Positions 52,505 to 58,040 of a DNA stretch of 64,000 nucleotides are shown here, in pieces. The first letter of the stretch is position 1. Each line of letters begins with the position of its first letter. The notes under the pieces were generated by a model. The model saw nothing but the letters and a program-made list of their open reading frames with translations, was not told the DNA's origin and ran no database searches. Where the stretch lies: NCBI RefSeq assembly GCF_000280925.3, contig NZ_CP012109.1, positions 1,798,001 to 1,862,000 on the forward strand, given 5' to 3'. This DNA comes from Myxococcus hansupus (GTDB lineage Bacteria > Myxococcota > Myxococcia > Myxococcales > Myxococcaceae). A program made the position numbers and the translations under genes.

Positions 52505-55282
52505 TCAGGACAGGCGGAGACCCGCGGGGAGCGTGTCACCCAGCGCGCGCGCCTCGTCGGCGGCCTCCAGGGCCACGACTTCTCGCACCATCCGTACCCA
52601 CGTCTCGGGAGCCTTCGCCGCGACCAGGGCCTGGGCGGTGCGCTCGCGCAGCTCGGGGCCCAAGTCCCGCGTGCGGTCCCCGGTGAGACGGGCGAGCTGC
52701 GCCGCCGCGAAGGACGCGCCGTCAATCTTCCGCAGGTCCAGCTCCAGCAGCAGCGTGAGCCATGCCTCGGCCGTGTCCACGTCCACCACCTTGTGGCTGC
52801 TGCCATACAGCGGCACGCGCGCGCCCAACCGGCCCAGGGACCAGGCCCAGGGGCCACCGGACTTCGCCTCGGCCTTCAGCCGCGCGGCAATCCACCGGCC
52901 CAGCTCCGCCTTGTCGCCCGGCGCCAGGTGCTCCAGTGACGCCGCGGTGCGGACCATCTCCTCCAGGCCCTCCGGCTGGATGCCCTTGAGCTTCCCCGGC
53001 GGCGGCGCGTCCGGCGGCACCTTCCGCGCGAGGTGGGGCTGGAGGTACGCGTACAGCTTCTGCTGCCGGGCCTCGTCGAGCCCGCCGGCGATGCGGCGCC
53101 ACATCACCCAGAACTCCGTCCACACCGCCTTGTCCGTGTGGTGCTGCACCAGCGCCTCGAAGAGGCTGAAGGTCTGCTCCGCGCGCCAGCCATCCAGCGG
53201 GTAGCCGAAGCCAGGGCGCAAGCTGAAGCCGGTGAGGCTGTAGAAGACGCGCTCGTGGTCGTCGGTGCGCCGGCGCTTGCTGGCGCCCGCGAAGAGGGTG
53301 CTCCACATCTCCCGCAGCACCGGCACGCGCCACGTCTCGCGAGGCCCCAGGGCCTTCTCCAACGTGCGCCCGAGCTGCTTCACGTCCTTGGGGCCAATGG
53401 GCAGCGGCTTGTTGCCGTAGACGCGCTCGATGTTGTCCTTCGCCTCGACGAAGCGCGCGGGCATGGACTCGGTGACGGTCAGCTCGTGTGAGCCGCCGGT
53501 GCCGCGCAGCTCGAACTCCAGGCGCCACCGCTCGTCCGCGACGTTGGAGACGCAGTACAGCTCCAGCGTGCCAATCTCCGTCAGCGCGGCCTGGAGGTGC
53601 ACGGGGACTTCGGCCACTTTGCCGGCGGCCCCCTTGAGCAGCGTGTGGATGGGCGGCAGGGACTTGAGGTCCTCCGCCAGCGGCACCAGGTCGCCCGGCT
53701 TGTCGATGCGGTCGCTGGTGGTGGAGTAGAGCTGGAACTGCACGGGGCGCCCCAGCGTGAGCGAGAAGGGACGCTCGCCCAGGTCCACCTTCTGGCCTTC
53801 CTCGAAGCCGCGAGGGATGAGGCACAGCGCGGGCTGCTCGGCGCTGTCCGCCGCGCGCTGGAGGCCCACGTAGTACGCCCGCGCGGCGCCGCCGCCAATG
53901 CGCAGGCCGTGGCCCCGGCGCACCAGTCCGTAGTACGCGGCGCCCCGGGCCACCGCGAGCTCCAGCGACTCATGCCGCAGCAGCGGGATGCGCGGCGCGT
54001 CTGGCCACCACGCGGAGAGGGCCTCCACCAGCCGCTCGGAAATCTGGGGCGAGTTGAACACGCCGCCGTTGAGCAGGATCGCGTCGGGGCGGGGCAGGGC
54101 CCCTTCGGAAGGCGCAGTCTCACCGAGGGCCGCGAAGCCCGCCGCCGCATGCTGCGCGAGGAACGCCGCCAGGTGCCGCGTCACCGCCGCGTCCTGCACG
54201 TACGGAAGACCCAGCTCCTGGAGCGCCATGCGCGCGGCGCGGCGCGGCCTGTCCGAGGGCGAGGAGGACGGGAAGAAGCCGTCCAGCACCAGGGCCTGTG
54301 CCTCGTCGCGCGACAGCTCCGTGGACAGCGTGCCACCCAACAGCTTGCTGCCGCCGCCCACCAGTGAGACGCCGTGCTTCTCCGGCGGCGCGTGGCCCAG
54401 CAGGGCCTCCTTCGCGGTGCGCGCGGCCTGGATGGCCTGCGTCCACTGCGTGGCGGACAGGCGGCGGCCGTCGGTGAGGAGCTTCTCTTCCACCCGGCGC
54501 GCCAGCGCGGCGTCCATGTTGTCGCCGCCCAGCATCAGGTGGTCGCCCACGGCGAGTCGCCGCAGCATGGGGCCTTCCGGGGACACGCCCGCGTGCACCA
54601 GCGTGAAGTCGGTGGTGCCGCCGCCCACGTCCACCACCAGCACCAGCCGGACCTTCGAGAGCGTCTGCTCCAGGTCCGAGCGGTGGCGCGCGGTGTAGTC
54701 GTAGAAGGCCGCCTGCGGCTCCTCCAGCAGGGTGAACTTCTCCAGCCCGGCCTTGCGCGCGGCGCTGACGGTGAGGGCGCGGGCCGCCTCGTCGAAGGAC
54801 GCGGGGACGGTGATCACCACCTCCTGCTTCGACAGGGGCGCGTCCGGGTGGGCGTAATCCCACGCGCGGGCCATGTGCGTCAGCAGCAGGGCGCTGGCGT
54901 CCACCGGGGACAGCTTCTGGACGTCGGCGGGCGCGCCCCAGGGGAGGATGGGCGCGGAGCGGTCCACGCCCGGGTGGCACAGCCAGCTCTTGGCGCTGGC
55001 CACCAGCCGCCCCGGCACGCGCGCGCCCTGCCAGCGGGCCAGCTCGCCCACCACCCACGGGCCGCCGTCATCACCCCAGGGCAGGGTGAGTGAGTCGGCG
55101 GCCAGCTCGTGGCCGGCGGGCACGTACACGGTGGAGGGCAGCAGCGCCCGGGGGGCCACCTCGCCCTGCCGGACGAGCTGCGGAAGGGGGAAGTCCTCGA
55201 CGGCGGCACCCGCGCCCCGCGAGGGGTCCACGGATGCCACGGCGCAATGGGTGGTGCCCAGGTCGATGCCAACGATACGCAT
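52505..55282 (-). CDS. Large Hsp70-family protein with DUF3731-like C-terminus
   Basis: This 925-residue protein has an Hsp70/actin-fold ATPase in its N-terminal half. The phosphate-1 loop is VGIDLGTTHCAVAS, the phosphate-2 loop VLVVDVGGGTTDFTLVHAG, and an ILLNGGVFNSPQI segment stands where the adenosine loop falls. A family-specific middle follows, and then a long helical extension (about 600-925) instead of a standard peptide-binding domain and lid; I believe this matches DUF3731. The C-terminal EEVD-type tail is absent. It lies 25 bases after a second Hsp70 gene and is the last gene of the operon DUF2760 - Hsp70 - Hsp70. No dnaJ or grpE is near. Confidence 0.9.
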   Translation of the reverse strand: MRIVGIDLGTTHCAVASVDPSRGAGAAVEDFPLPQLVRQGEVAPRALLPSTVYVPAGHELAADSLTLPWGDDGGPWVVGELARWQGARVPGRLVASAKSWLCHPGVDRSAPILPWGAPADVQKLSPVDASALLLTHMARAWDYAHPDAPLSKQEVVITVPASFDEAARALTVSAARKAGLEKFTLLEEPQAAFYDYTARHRSDLEQTLSKVRLVLVVDVGGGTTDFTLVHAGVSPEGPMLRRLAVGDHLMLGGDNMDAALARRVEEKLLTDGRRLSATQWTQAIQAARTAKEALLGHAPPEKHGVSLVGGGSKLLGGTLSTELSRDEAQALVLDGFFPSSSPSDRPRRAARMALQELGLPYVQDAAVTRHLAAFLAQHAAAGFAALGETAPSEGALPRPDAILLNGGVFNSPQISERLVEALSAWWPDAPRIPLLRHESLELAVARGAAYYGLVRRGHGLRIGGGAARAYYVGLQRAADSAEQPALCLIPRGFEEGQKVDLGERPFSLTLGRPVQFQLYSTTSDRIDKPGDLVPLAEDLKSLPPIHTLLKGAAGKVAEVPVHLQAALTEIGTLELYCVSNVADERWRLEFELRGTGGSHELTVTESMPARFVEAKDNIERVYGNKPLPIGPKDVKQLGRTLEKALGPRETWRVPVLREMWSTLFAGASKRRRTDDHERVFYSLTGFSLRPGFGYPLDGWRAEQTFSLFEALVQHHTDKAVWTEFWVMWRRIAGGLDEARQQKLYAYLQPHLARKVPPDAPPPGKLKGIQPEGLEEMVRTAASLEHLAPGDKAELGRWIAARLKAEAKSGGPWAWSLGRLGARVPLYGSSHKVVDVDTAEAWLTLLLELDLRKIDGASFAAAQLARLTGDRTRDLGPELRERTAQALVAAKAPETWVRMVREVVALEAADEARALGDTLPAGLRLS

Positions 55283-55307
55283 ACGCCTCCGATTGACGGA
55301 TGGCTTT

Positions 55308-57170
55308 CTACTCCTTCATGCGGACGTTGAGCTCCAGCTTCCACCGCCCGGGGCCATCCTTCTCCAGGCACCGGAGCTCCAGCGTGCCCACCTCGGTGAC
55401 GGCCGCCTGGAGATTCACCGGCGTCAAGTCACTGAAGGCCGAGGGCTGTCCCGGCATGGTCGTCTCGATGGGGGCCAGCTCCTCCAGCCCTCCGCCGGCC
55501 AGCTCCGAGTCCACGTCCTCCAGCATGACGCCCACCTTGTCGTCGCGCCGCAGGGACGAGGAGAAGAAGCGGAAGCTGGTGGGCTCACCGGTGACGAGCC
55601 CGAACTCCTGGGGCGGGACATCCGCCTGCGTGCCTTCCTCCATGCCGAAGGGGGCCACGCAGAGCGCCTTCACGGGCGGCTCCATGCCGGGCACCGCGGG
55701 CATCGCCGTCTCCACGCCCACGTAGTAGGCGCGGGCCGTGCCGCCGCGAATGCGCAGGCCGTGCCCCTGACGCACCCAACCGTAGTAGGCGGCGCCGCGC
55801 GCCACCGCGAGGTCCAGGTCCGCGCCCTCCAGCTCCTTGGCTGGCGCGCCACCGTCGGCGCTGAGCCAGCCGTTGAGCACCTCCATGACACGCGCCTTCA
55901 GCGGACCGGCCTTGAAGACGCCCCCGTTGAAGAGCACCGCCGTGGGGTGGAGGAAGGCCTTGCCGCTCACGTCCACCGGCGCGTCCGAGCTGGCCGCGAG
56001 CGCCTGCGCCTGCCGCGTGAGGAAGGCCGCCAGGTGCCGGGACACACCCGCGTCCTGCGCGTAGGGCAGCGCCATCTGCGCCAGGCCCGTGCGGCGCGCG
56101 GTGCGCGGCAGCTCGCTGACGGGCGTCACCGGGAAGAAGCCGTCCGTGAGGACGCGGTCCAGCTCCTCGCGCGTCAGCTCCGTGCGCAGGGTGCCGCCGA
56201 TGAGGGACGAGCCCCGGCCCGGAATCGAGATGGGGGAGCGCTCCAGGGCGGGGTCGGCGTAGAGCGACTCCTTCGCCTGGCGGCAGCCGTAGGTGAGGGC
56301 GTTGAACTGCCACGCGTCCAGCTTCTTGCCCTCGGCCGTCATCCGCTGGTTCAGCGTGTGCGCCAGCGCCAGGTCCATGTTGTCGCCGCCCAGCAGGATG
56401 TGGTCGCCCACGGCCACGCGCAGCAGCTCCAGGTCCCCTTCGTTGTCCCGCACGGTGATGACGGAGAAGTCGGAGGTGCCGCCGCCCACGTCCACCACGA
56501 GGATGACCTCGCCAGGCTGCACCTGCTTGCGGAAGTTCTCCCCCATGGCCTCCAGCCACGCGTAGAGCGCGGCCTGGGGCTCCTCCAACAAGGTGATGTT
56601 GGGGATGCCCGCCGCCTTGGCGGCCTCCAGCGTCAAGTCTCTCGCCGCCGCGTCGAAGGAGGCGGGAACGGTGACGATGACGTCCTGGTCGGCCAGGGCG
56701 TTGGCGGACTCGTCGCGCTCCCGGGCGAAGGTGTAGTCCCACGCCTCCTTCAGGTGCCGGAGGTAGCGCGCGGACGCGTCCAGCGGTGACACCCGCTGCA
56801 CCTCCTCGGGGGCCTGCCACGGCAGGAGCGCCGCGCGCCGGTCCACGCCCGGGTGGGACAGCCAGCTCTTGGCGGAGGACACCAGCCGGGTGGGCACCTT
56901 GGCGCCGTGCGTGCGGGCGAACTCACCCAGCAAGGTGCTGGCCTCCGGCTTCCACGGCAGCGCGAGGCTGCCGGCGGGGAACTCCTGCGACGAGGGCAGG
57001 TAGAGGAAGGAGGGGAGCAGCGGACGGGCCTCGACGGTGCCGGGCGCGGTCAACTGGGGGACGGGCAGCATGGACTGCGCGCCGCCTCGGGGCTTGCCCT
57101 CCTCCAGGTTGAAGTAGGACACGGCGGAGTGCGTGGTGCCCAGGTCGATGCCAATGGAATAGCGGGCCAT
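55308..57170 (-). CDS. Hsp70-family chaperone-like protein (second copy)
   Basis: This 620-residue protein has YSIGIDLGTTHSAVSYFN at the start, VILVVDVGGGTSDFSVITV as the phosphate-2 loop, VAVGDHILLGGDNMDLALAH, and VLFNGGVFKAGPLKARV. Its ATPase half is clearly paralogous to that of the 925-residue neighbour, with parallel segments such as RKAGI/KAAGI...TLLEEPQAA and the GWVRQGHGLRIRGGTARAYYVG type. The C-terminal 90 residues form a short beta-rich domain in place of the usual substrate-binding unit. ATG 57170 follows GGAG. It is preceded at 61 bases by the DUF2760 gene and is probably co-transcribed with both neighbours. Confidence 0.9.
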   Translation of the reverse strand: MARYSIGIDLGTTHSAVSYFNLEEGKPRGGAQSMLPVPQLTAPGTVEARPLLPSFLYLPSSQEFPAGSLALPWKPEASTLLGEFARTHGAKVPTRLVSSAKSWLSHPGVDRRAALLPWQAPEEVQRVSPLDASARYLRHLKEAWDYTFARERDESANALADQDVIVTVPASFDAAARDLTLEAAKAAGIPNITLLEEPQAALYAWLEAMGENFRKQVQPGEVILVVDVGGGTSDFSVITVRDNEGDLELLRVAVGDHILLGGDNMDLALAHTLNQRMTAEGKKLDAWQFNALTYGCRQAKESLYADPALERSPISIPGRGSSLIGGTLRTELTREELDRVLTDGFFPVTPVSELPRTARRTGLAQMALPYAQDAGVSRHLAAFLTRQAQALAASSDAPVDVSGKAFLHPTAVLFNGGVFKAGPLKARVMEVLNGWLSADGGAPAKELEGADLDLAVARGAAYYGWVRQGHGLRIRGGTARAYYVGVETAMPAVPGMEPPVKALCVAPFGMEEGTQADVPPQEFGLVTGEPTSFRFFSSSLRRDDKVGVMLEDVDSELAGGGLEELAPIETTMPGQPSAFSDLTPVNLQAAVTEVGTLELRCLEKDGPGRWKLELNVRMKE

Positions 57171-57231
57171 ATCGGACGAAAACTCCTGGAAGGCGCCTGT
57201 TTGTTCGCGCGGTGGAGCCGTGACGGCGGGC

Positions 57232-57858
57232 TCAGGAAAGCTCGACCTCCGCGGGGGCAAGCACGCGCGGGTCGATGGCGGGGCTGACGGTGGGCAGCTT
57301 CACCGCCGTGGTCATCCAACCGTGGTGGCGCAGGACGCCGTTGAAGGGCGGCTGACCCGCCACGTTCCCGGTGAGGCGGATGCGCTGGGCGTCGAACCCG
57401 GCCGGGACGGGCACCGCGTCCCCTTCGTTCTGGGGCAGCACCCGCTCCAGCGTCAGGTACGTCTGCGCCACCTTGCGGCAGCCCTCATGGACGATGCGCG
57501 CCGCGGCGCCCACTTCTGCGTCGGAGAAGGCGGAGACGTTCTCCTGGAGAAAGTCCACGAAGCGGCCCTCGCGCTGGAGCATGCCCAGCAGGGAAAGCGC
57601 GCTGGCGTGCTCTCGCTCGGGCGGCAGGGCGGCGGGCGGTGCGACCGGCCGGGGGGCGGGGCGCACTTCCTCCGGCTGGGGGGATGGGGTGGGGGCAGGG
57701 CCACCGGAAGGGAGCTGGGCGAGCTGACCCGCGTCGTACGCCTTGCTCGCGGGCAGCACGGCCTGGGCGAACTCGCGGGACAGGAGGCAGCGCCAGAAGC
57801 ACAGCCAGGCAAGCCAGAAGCGGGCGAAGAACGACAGTGAGGCGGGCTGGTCGGTCAT
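57232..57858 (-). CDS. DUF2760 protein, partner of the Hsp70 pair
   Basis: This 208-residue protein begins with a hydrophobic, aromatic stretch (about 7-28: LSFFARFWLAWLCFWRCLLS), then a Pro/Ala-rich linker, then a DUF2760-type domain with ALSLLGMLQREGRFVDFLQENVSAFSDAEVGAAARIVHEGCRK and a C-terminal beta region (GFDAQRIRLTGNVAGQPPFNGVLRHHGW). The domain is regularly found beside Hsp70 paralogues, where its function is unknown. The N-terminal stretch might be a membrane contact. ATG 57858 follows GGAG. It leads the three-gene operon. Confidence 0.85.
   Translation of the reverse strand: MTDQPASLSFFARFWLAWLCFWRCLLSREFAQAVLPASKAYDAGQLAQLPSGGPAPTPSPQPEEVRPAPRPVAPPAALPPEREHASALSLLGMLQREGRFVDFLQENVSAFSDAEVGAAARIVHEGCRKVAQTYLTLERVLPQNEGDAVPVPAGFDAQRIRLTGNVAGQPPFNGVLRHHGWMTTAVKLPTVSPAIDPRVLAPAEVELS

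Positions 57859-57964: not shown

Positions 57965-58040
<76 letters not shown>

Follow-up and report, generated by a model that had tools for sequence, protein, structure and literature searches.

A conserved bacterial module of a DUF2760 protein and two divergent Hsp70s in Myxococcus hansupus

Introduction

Canonical Hsp70s need J-proteins both for stimulation of their ATPase activity and for targeting. More specialized arrangements include HscA, which serves IscU and offers a model for a chaperone–client pair, and the Hsp70–Hsp110 (Sse1) pair, in which two related Hsp70-fold proteins are combined and the larger has an extended helical C-terminus. Three prokaryotic Hsp70 types (DnaK, HscA and HscC) are listed in the portion of PMC8215388 available to us, which also gives R167, Q378 and the linker as J-domain contacts in DnaK. 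Here we describe three consecutive genes on the minus strand of a 64,000-nucleotide stretch of the genome of the soil bacterium Myxococcus hansupus (contig NZ_CP012109.1, positions 1,798,001 to 1,862,000; hereafter the window). They encode a DUF2760 protein (D; 57232–57858, 208 amino acids) and two Hsp70-like proteins, A (55308–57170, 620 amino acids) and B (52505–55282, 925 amino acids).

A literature search found no paper naming DUF2760, DUF3731, PF10816 or PF12531, and for MXAN_5323, MXAN_5324 and MXAN_5325 it found a 2021 paper alone (PMC8265645). According to the sections of that paper available to us, to which all statements on it below refer, M. xanthus has 15 hsp70 genes, for six of which deletion was tried and for five obtained, including MXAN_5323. 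The product of this gene is described there as a 925-amino-acid, cd10170-type Hsp70 far from DnaK. Its length and domain class make it the probable orthologue of B. A preliminary description of the locus had assigned no known function to the three genes; this stands for the two Pfam families, which are uncharacterized, but not for B, whose probable orthologue has a published deletion phenotype.

Results

As the preliminary description had it, the three genes lie in one run. Their order is D, A, B, with gaps of 61 nt (D–A) and 25 nt (A–B). D matched PF10816 (DUF2760) with E 1.2e-50 (171 bits against a gathering score of 25), and A matched HSP70 with E 7.1e-18. B matched both HSP70 (E 1e-16) and, over residues 674–924, PF12531 (DUF3731; E 3e-91, 306.1 bits against a gathering score of 25). 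Four phylum samples totaling 887 genomes were scanned for PF10816 and PF12531 as markers of D and B; for all but the Myxococcota sample, the phylum was named after the title of the locus on which the sample was centered. Among 195 Myxococcota genomes, D was found in 123, B in 129 and both in 122. The corresponding numbers were 22, 21 and 21 for 299 Pseudomonadota genomes drawn evenly, and 34, 35 and 34 for 194 genomes of the phylum containing a Victivallales locus (L162), where B of the single B-only genome is a fragment with a stop. In 199 genomes of the phylum containing a Gemmataceae locus (L132), D was above cut-off in 24, B in 23 and both in 23, counts that leave out one D (G871) and one B (G880) below cut-off. 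Pooled, B was present in 200/203 genomes with D and D in 200/208 genomes with B, and neither was found in 14 control genomes (0/14). The sampled genomes are related, and a Fisher test of co-retention, which treats them as independent, overstates the significance. D–A–B is thus a true module kept across several phyla, and this co-retention suggests that the three proteins probably belong to one protein-handling system. Recurrence in other proteobacteria, as first suggested, is borne out by the Pseudomonadota, although the module extends far beyond that group.

Co-retention was compared with gene linkage. In 105/122 Myxococcota genomes B comes after D on one contig and in the same orientation, with gaps of 3.6–8.4 kb. 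A D-then-B arrangement within 10 kb was found in 20/21 Pseudomonadota genomes, 18/34 genomes of the Victivallales phylum and 13/23 of the Gemmataceae phylum. The remaining 16/34 and 10/23 genomes keep both genes outside such a run, indicating that co-retention outlasts loss of linkage. Some of these separations are breaks in draft assemblies; others fall within a single contig, as in G725 (~3 Mb) and G592 (258 kb).

The DUF2760 scan gave at least 539 relatives, and neighborhoods were taken from the best 80 named loci; the nearest named relatives among the matches listed were from Myxococcus and Corallococcus. A follows D on the same strand in 76 of these 80 loci. Of the other four, one ends 146 bases past D, two (L132 and L162) keep A elsewhere in the genome, and one (L113) has only an A fragment. 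Co-occurrence of A was judged from adjacency to D and a genome-wide look at a few loci. A 4-nt stop–start overlap, which is typical of translational coupling, joins D and A in 32/70 loci with starts set by motif; we prefer this count to the inflated 51/76 obtained with the longest starts. B lies downstream on the D strand in 57 of the best 80 loci. For 14 of the 23 loci lacking an adjacent B, all of which have room for it on the contig, the whole genome was checked, and DUF3731 was found in 10/14; with three control loci that have an adjacent B (3/3), the total was 13/17. The preliminary description had held that frequent separation of the genes would speak against a self-contained module. D and A are not often separated, and B, although unlinked in a substantial minority of genomes, is retained with them. 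Mirror-tree correlations across 42 loci (D–A 0.85, D–B 0.85, A–B 0.94), calculated without an organism-tree control, fit co-inheritance. Clustering of flanking open reading frames (ORFs) in the best 80 loci gave no other conserved neighbor besides D, A and B, just synteny among close relatives and a few common families.

Some loci stand apart. Candidate D–A fusions, considered as proof of contact, were rejected: in G027, G031, G039, G407, G036, G030 and G147, all with a long D frame, an ORF of its own encodes each of the two proteins. L079 (G021) encodes a D-like protein with a weaker match and a domain gap, in a genome that lacks B and in which no A stood out from the other Hsp70s; owing to the missing B and the weaker, gapped match, this D may be a decaying remnant. 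L088 (BNCN01000001.1), titled Comamonas sp. KCTC 72670, has a D 96% identical to the window D within myxobacterial synteny; its label is probably wrong, and we excluded it from the non-redundant sets. L097 (CAMAUZ010000153.1), a metagenome-assembled genome (MAG) titled Akkermansia muciniphila, has D–A in a 7.9 Mb assembly, far above the usual size for that species, and is probably mislabeled as well.

The module also occurs on plasmids. D was found in 11 records of a plasmid collection, and in the six inspected A follows D directly (6/6), with B next in 5/6. Two Bradyrhizobium plasmids carry D–A–B, L083 (NZ_CP088103.1) and L086 (NZ_CP121651.1), one of them conjugative with the module behind a MarR-type regulator, the other with it near groESL. 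On a Candidatus Thiodictyon plasmid (L084, NZ_CP020372.1), D–A stands without B amid anti-phage, VapC and TIR-domain genes. A mobile defense or plasmid-fitness module could be read from the Thiodictyon setting and the conjugative plasmid. We consider this highly improbable: the PADLOC match is weak and partial, involves A and B only and falls in the ATPase core, no D relatives appeared in viral contigs at the sensitivity used, and no mobile or defense neighbor is conserved among the best 80 loci. A viral origin was also rejected, given this result for viral contigs and the lack of a viral structure in BFVD matching the D model at E ≤ 0.001.

D was examined by sequence and structure prediction. 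No Pfam family other than DUF2760, and hence no GrpE or J-domain family, matched it at E 1e-3 or better. The D model (mean predicted local distance difference test score, pLDDT, 91.6; predicted template modeling score, pTM, 0.62) consists of two N-terminal helices, a linker, and a domain of helices and β-strands. Residues 10–42 form aromatic amphipathic helices, in line with the aromatic hydrophobic N-terminus noted at the outset. They are followed by a Pro-rich linker and a conserved C-terminal domain (residues 84–206) that ends in APAEVELS and has 14 invariant columns among 69 sequences. The near-invariant APAEVEL at the extreme C-terminus of DUF2760 proteins (window 57232–57270) is a candidate docking tail.

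The D N-terminus varies among lineages. It usually takes the shape of an aromatic amphipathic helix with the pattern FFxRLxLAFxxFFRxL. In contrast, one or two clear transmembrane segments are found in D of L133, L138, L148, L155, L161, L167 and the Bradyrhizobium plasmids L083 and L086, the last two having a two-span N-terminus. When 86 D proteins were classed, 17 had a 19-residue mean hydropathy of ≥1.8, some of which (e.g., L106, L108, L141 and L166) represent the aromatic helix rather than a clear transmembrane span, 57 had the amphipathic motif alone, nine fell elsewhere and three were cut. A separate hydropathy count over 69 D left out seven with short chosen starts, which were examined on their own. 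Replacement of one membrane-binding element by another across lineages speaks for conservation of membrane attachment as such, and D is probably membrane-linked, in line with the membrane location that the preliminary description had considered for the system. Basic residues usually follow the transmembrane segments. By the positive-inside rule such basic flanks lie on the cytosolic side, which would place the conserved D domain in the cytosol, the compartment expected for A and B. In some D (L133, L138 and L167) the linker contains a VEKIVEV-type repeat run, which suggests a charged spacer that keeps the domain away from the membrane.

Fold searches with the D model gave no clear match. No solved structure was matched by Foldseek in the PDB at E ≤ 0.001, and the best VIA-align result had a Z of 3.8 over 58 residues with a root-mean-square deviation (rmsd) of 6.2, values that do not imply fold novelty. 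These searches speak neither for nor against an activity of D itself, which matters for one alternative: D could be the client of the system and do the cellular work, with A and B as dedicated assembly chaperones that insert or mature this membrane protein. Adjacency of D and A and their stop–start overlap fit a client and its chaperone as well as a cofactor pair, and the high conservation of the soluble domain is in keeping with this assignment. It would be unusual, however, for a single small client to be served by two Hsp70s, and we regard D as client as rather unlikely.

We next compared A and B with known Hsp70s. An AlphaFold2 model of B built from 41 sequences (mean pLDDT 85.5, pTM 0.80) comprises an ATPase domain (residues about 1–456), a β subdomain of the substrate-binding domain (SBDβ; residues about 460–594) and a helical DUF3731 region in place of the lid (residues about 611–914). 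Residues 1–594 superpose on the nucleotide-binding domain and SBDβ of DnaK and BiP, among them structures with ATP bound and the domains docked (Z 32–37, rmsd mostly ~4), and Foldseek also matches the B model to DnaK/BiP-type structures. Since the model superposes on these chaperones, B is predicted to have an ordinary ATPase domain and SBDβ, with the α lid alone replaced by DUF3731. A aligns with B through SBDβ and then ends before the lid, so that, judged by alignment, it comprises an ATPase domain and an end resembling the β substrate domain, with no α lid. The preliminary description had denied both proteins a normal substrate-binding domain. This is correct for the lid, missing in A and replaced in B, but not for the β subdomain, present in the B model and, by alignment, in A. 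The "beta-rich short end" ascribed to A corresponds, by alignment with B, to a DnaK-type β substrate domain. The long helical extension ascribed to B appears in the model as a helical end of roughly 300 residues.

Catalytic residues are retained in both proteins. All 51 A and all 41 B have the equivalents of K70, P143, D194, T199 and D201, and the D148 equivalent is present in 51/51 A and 40/41 B. DnaK numbering of K70, P143, D148, R167 and Q378, as well as the linker, follows the available part of PMC8215388. The positions of the J-domain contacts are altered in part: an LLLDV-type linker is found in 0/51 A and 0/41 B, glutamine at the Q378 equivalent likewise in 0/51 and 0/41, while arginine occupies the position of R167 in 5/51 A and in 21/41 B. 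Among 14 other Hsp70s of the host genome, taken as a control, R167 is present in 12/14 and an LLLDV-type linker in 5/14.

Family scores were consistent with this divergence. The best NCBIfam match of both proteins was HscA (B, E 7.5e-26; A, E 1.3e-23), with 90.7 bits for B and 83.4 for A against a cut-off of 708.55; scores to DnaK were 59 and 58.8 bits against a cut-off of 822.55. In a FastTree phylogeny with the host paralogues, A and B shared a single long-branched group, A lying within or next to B; these deep nodes had weak support. Catalytic residues and SBDβ (for A, through alignment with B) make A and B members of the Hsp70 superfamily, and linker, lid and scores place them outside the canonical DnaK and HscA families. 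A scored 64.6 bits to HSP70 and 33.3 to MreB_Mbl, above the 27-bit cut-off, while B (22.9 bits) fell below it; with the HSP70 score of A the higher and B under the cut-off, neither protein would be assigned to MreB/Mbl.

The MreB_Mbl score of A nevertheless bears on a second alternative, that A and B, instead of being chaperones, serve at the membrane as switches or scaffolds that have the actin/Hsp70 fold and are driven by ATP, with the β domain docking D. The missing or replaced lid and the altered linker and R167/Q378 positions of the DnaK cycle would suit such a role. It is at odds with the higher scores of A and B to HSP70 and HscA models than to MreB, with SBDβ in the B model, and with conservation of the K70–P143–D148 relay that connects the substrate site to the site of catalysis. 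On this evidence we judge a switch or scaffold role unlikely.

Phenotypic data come from the probable B orthologue. Deletion of MXAN_5323 left growth, swarming and predation like wild type and fruiting bodies almost unaffected, but gave fewer spores, slow recovery after hydrogen peroxide and lower survival of it (PMC8265645). MXAN_5323 failed to complement an E. coli dnaK mutant. Its expression goes up during development; in the transcriptome the gene was an exception among the heat-unresponsive genes, but quantitative PCR gave no obvious increase (PMC8265645). Mutants in other non-canonical hsp70 genes have overlapping phenotypes, which would fit D, A and B being three independent chaperone-type proteins, joined by a common operon and way of life but not by a complex. 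Such a loose set of stress-response genes is improbable in our estimate: the almost complete co-retention across the four phylum samples, which extends to unlinked genes, would be difficult to account for unless the proteins depended on one another functionally.

The surroundings of the operon were examined as well. A tRNA-Ala (CGC) gene lies upstream of D (57965–58040, minus strand), and together with a GC-rich inverted repeat between it and D it forms the probable upstream boundary of the operon. A sigma-70-type promoter scan of the region returned nothing, which is uninformative in a GC-rich genome. Seven flanking ORFs were analyzed with Pfam: six matched a GDP-mannose dehydratase, a phytase, a metallophosphatase, a TPR protein, a UbiA-type prenyltransferase and an ABC ATPase, one had no match, and none contained a J-domain or GrpE, in agreement with the reported lack of dnaJ and grpE alongside. 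The host genome is a single contig of 9,490,432 bases in which the Hsp70 model has 19 matches, corresponding to ~15 genes, with A and B among the weaker scorers.

Discussion

We favor, with moderate confidence, the interpretation that D–A–B is a membrane-tethered, dedicated Hsp70 pair with D as its cofactor. The three proteins would form a three-component Hsp70 system on the cytoplasmic side of a membrane, anchored by the N-terminal helix of D, from which a flexible linker would extend to present the soluble, conserved domain. Lidless A, often translationally coupled to D, is probably its direct partner. B, with DUF3731 for a lid, would work with A, perhaps by analogy as Hsp110 does with Hsp70. 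The chemistry of ATP hydrolysis is kept, but the canonical linker is gone, as are some of the contacts with J-domains; D, or D together with B, may therefore stand in for DnaJ and GrpE. The client would probably be a membrane or envelope process important in oxidative stress and sporulation. A stronger form of this proposal, which we offer tentatively and think doubtful, is that DUF2760 represents a new class of membrane-anchored Hsp70 cofactor replacing DnaJ and GrpE for a private Hsp70 pair, that DUF3731 of B acts as a lid in trans for A, and that the whole is a J-protein-free inner-membrane machine present in several phyla.

Several observations weigh against the cofactor proposal. B lies apart from D–A in a sizeable minority of genomes, and 4/17 of the genomes inspected yielded no B; each of these four belongs to a locus with MAG in its title. 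The linker occurs in just 5/14 other Hsp70s of the same genome, so its loss alone is not distinctive, and arginine at the R167 equivalent in 21/41 B puts the J-domain independence of B in doubt. The window D has a moderately hydrophobic N-terminus (best 19-residue Kyte–Doolittle mean 1.38), and membrane binding there is therefore extrapolated from relatives. MXAN_5323 was matched to B by length and domain class, not by sequence, and its phenotypes are common to four other hsp70 deletions rather than specific (PMC8265645).

If correct, the cofactor proposal would mean another wiring of the Hsp70 cycle: a conserved pair without the usual linker and lid, its catalytic residues intact, co-retained with a membrane-type partner of no recognized fold. 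Two uncharacterized Pfam families, DUF2760 and DUF3731, would be assigned to one system, and this system is open to genetics in Myxococcus or Burkholderiales.

The locus can be set against described systems at several levels. Both PF10816 and PF12531 are present, in D and B respectively and well above cut-off, but as families they carry no characterized role. MXAN_5323 was studied as a lone Hsp70, and the operon, a DUF2760 partner or a module is not described in the available sections of PMC8265645. With DnaK–DnaJ–GrpE, A and B share the ATPase fold and catalytic residues, and the B model shares the SBDβ fold. In contrast to that system, A is lidless, B has DUF3731 for a lid, neither has an LLLDV linker, and D–A–B comes without adjoining dnaJ or grpE and with an extra membrane-type protein, D. 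HscA/HscB/IscU and HscC are likewise specialized Hsp70 systems, and HscA is the best NCBIfam match of both proteins; A and B nevertheless score far under the HscA cut-off, with no J-protein partner gene and no conserved neighbor beyond D, A and B. Compared with the Hsp70–Hsp110 pair, A–B is bacterial, A is lidless and there is no sequence membership, and Sse1 (2qxl) is one Foldseek match of B (E 6.8e-17) among many Hsp70s; a nucleotide-exchange role of the Hsp110/Sse1 type would be hypothetical here. The likeness to that pair is one of size and domains alone: A and B are partners of unequal size, of which the larger, B, has a helical end.

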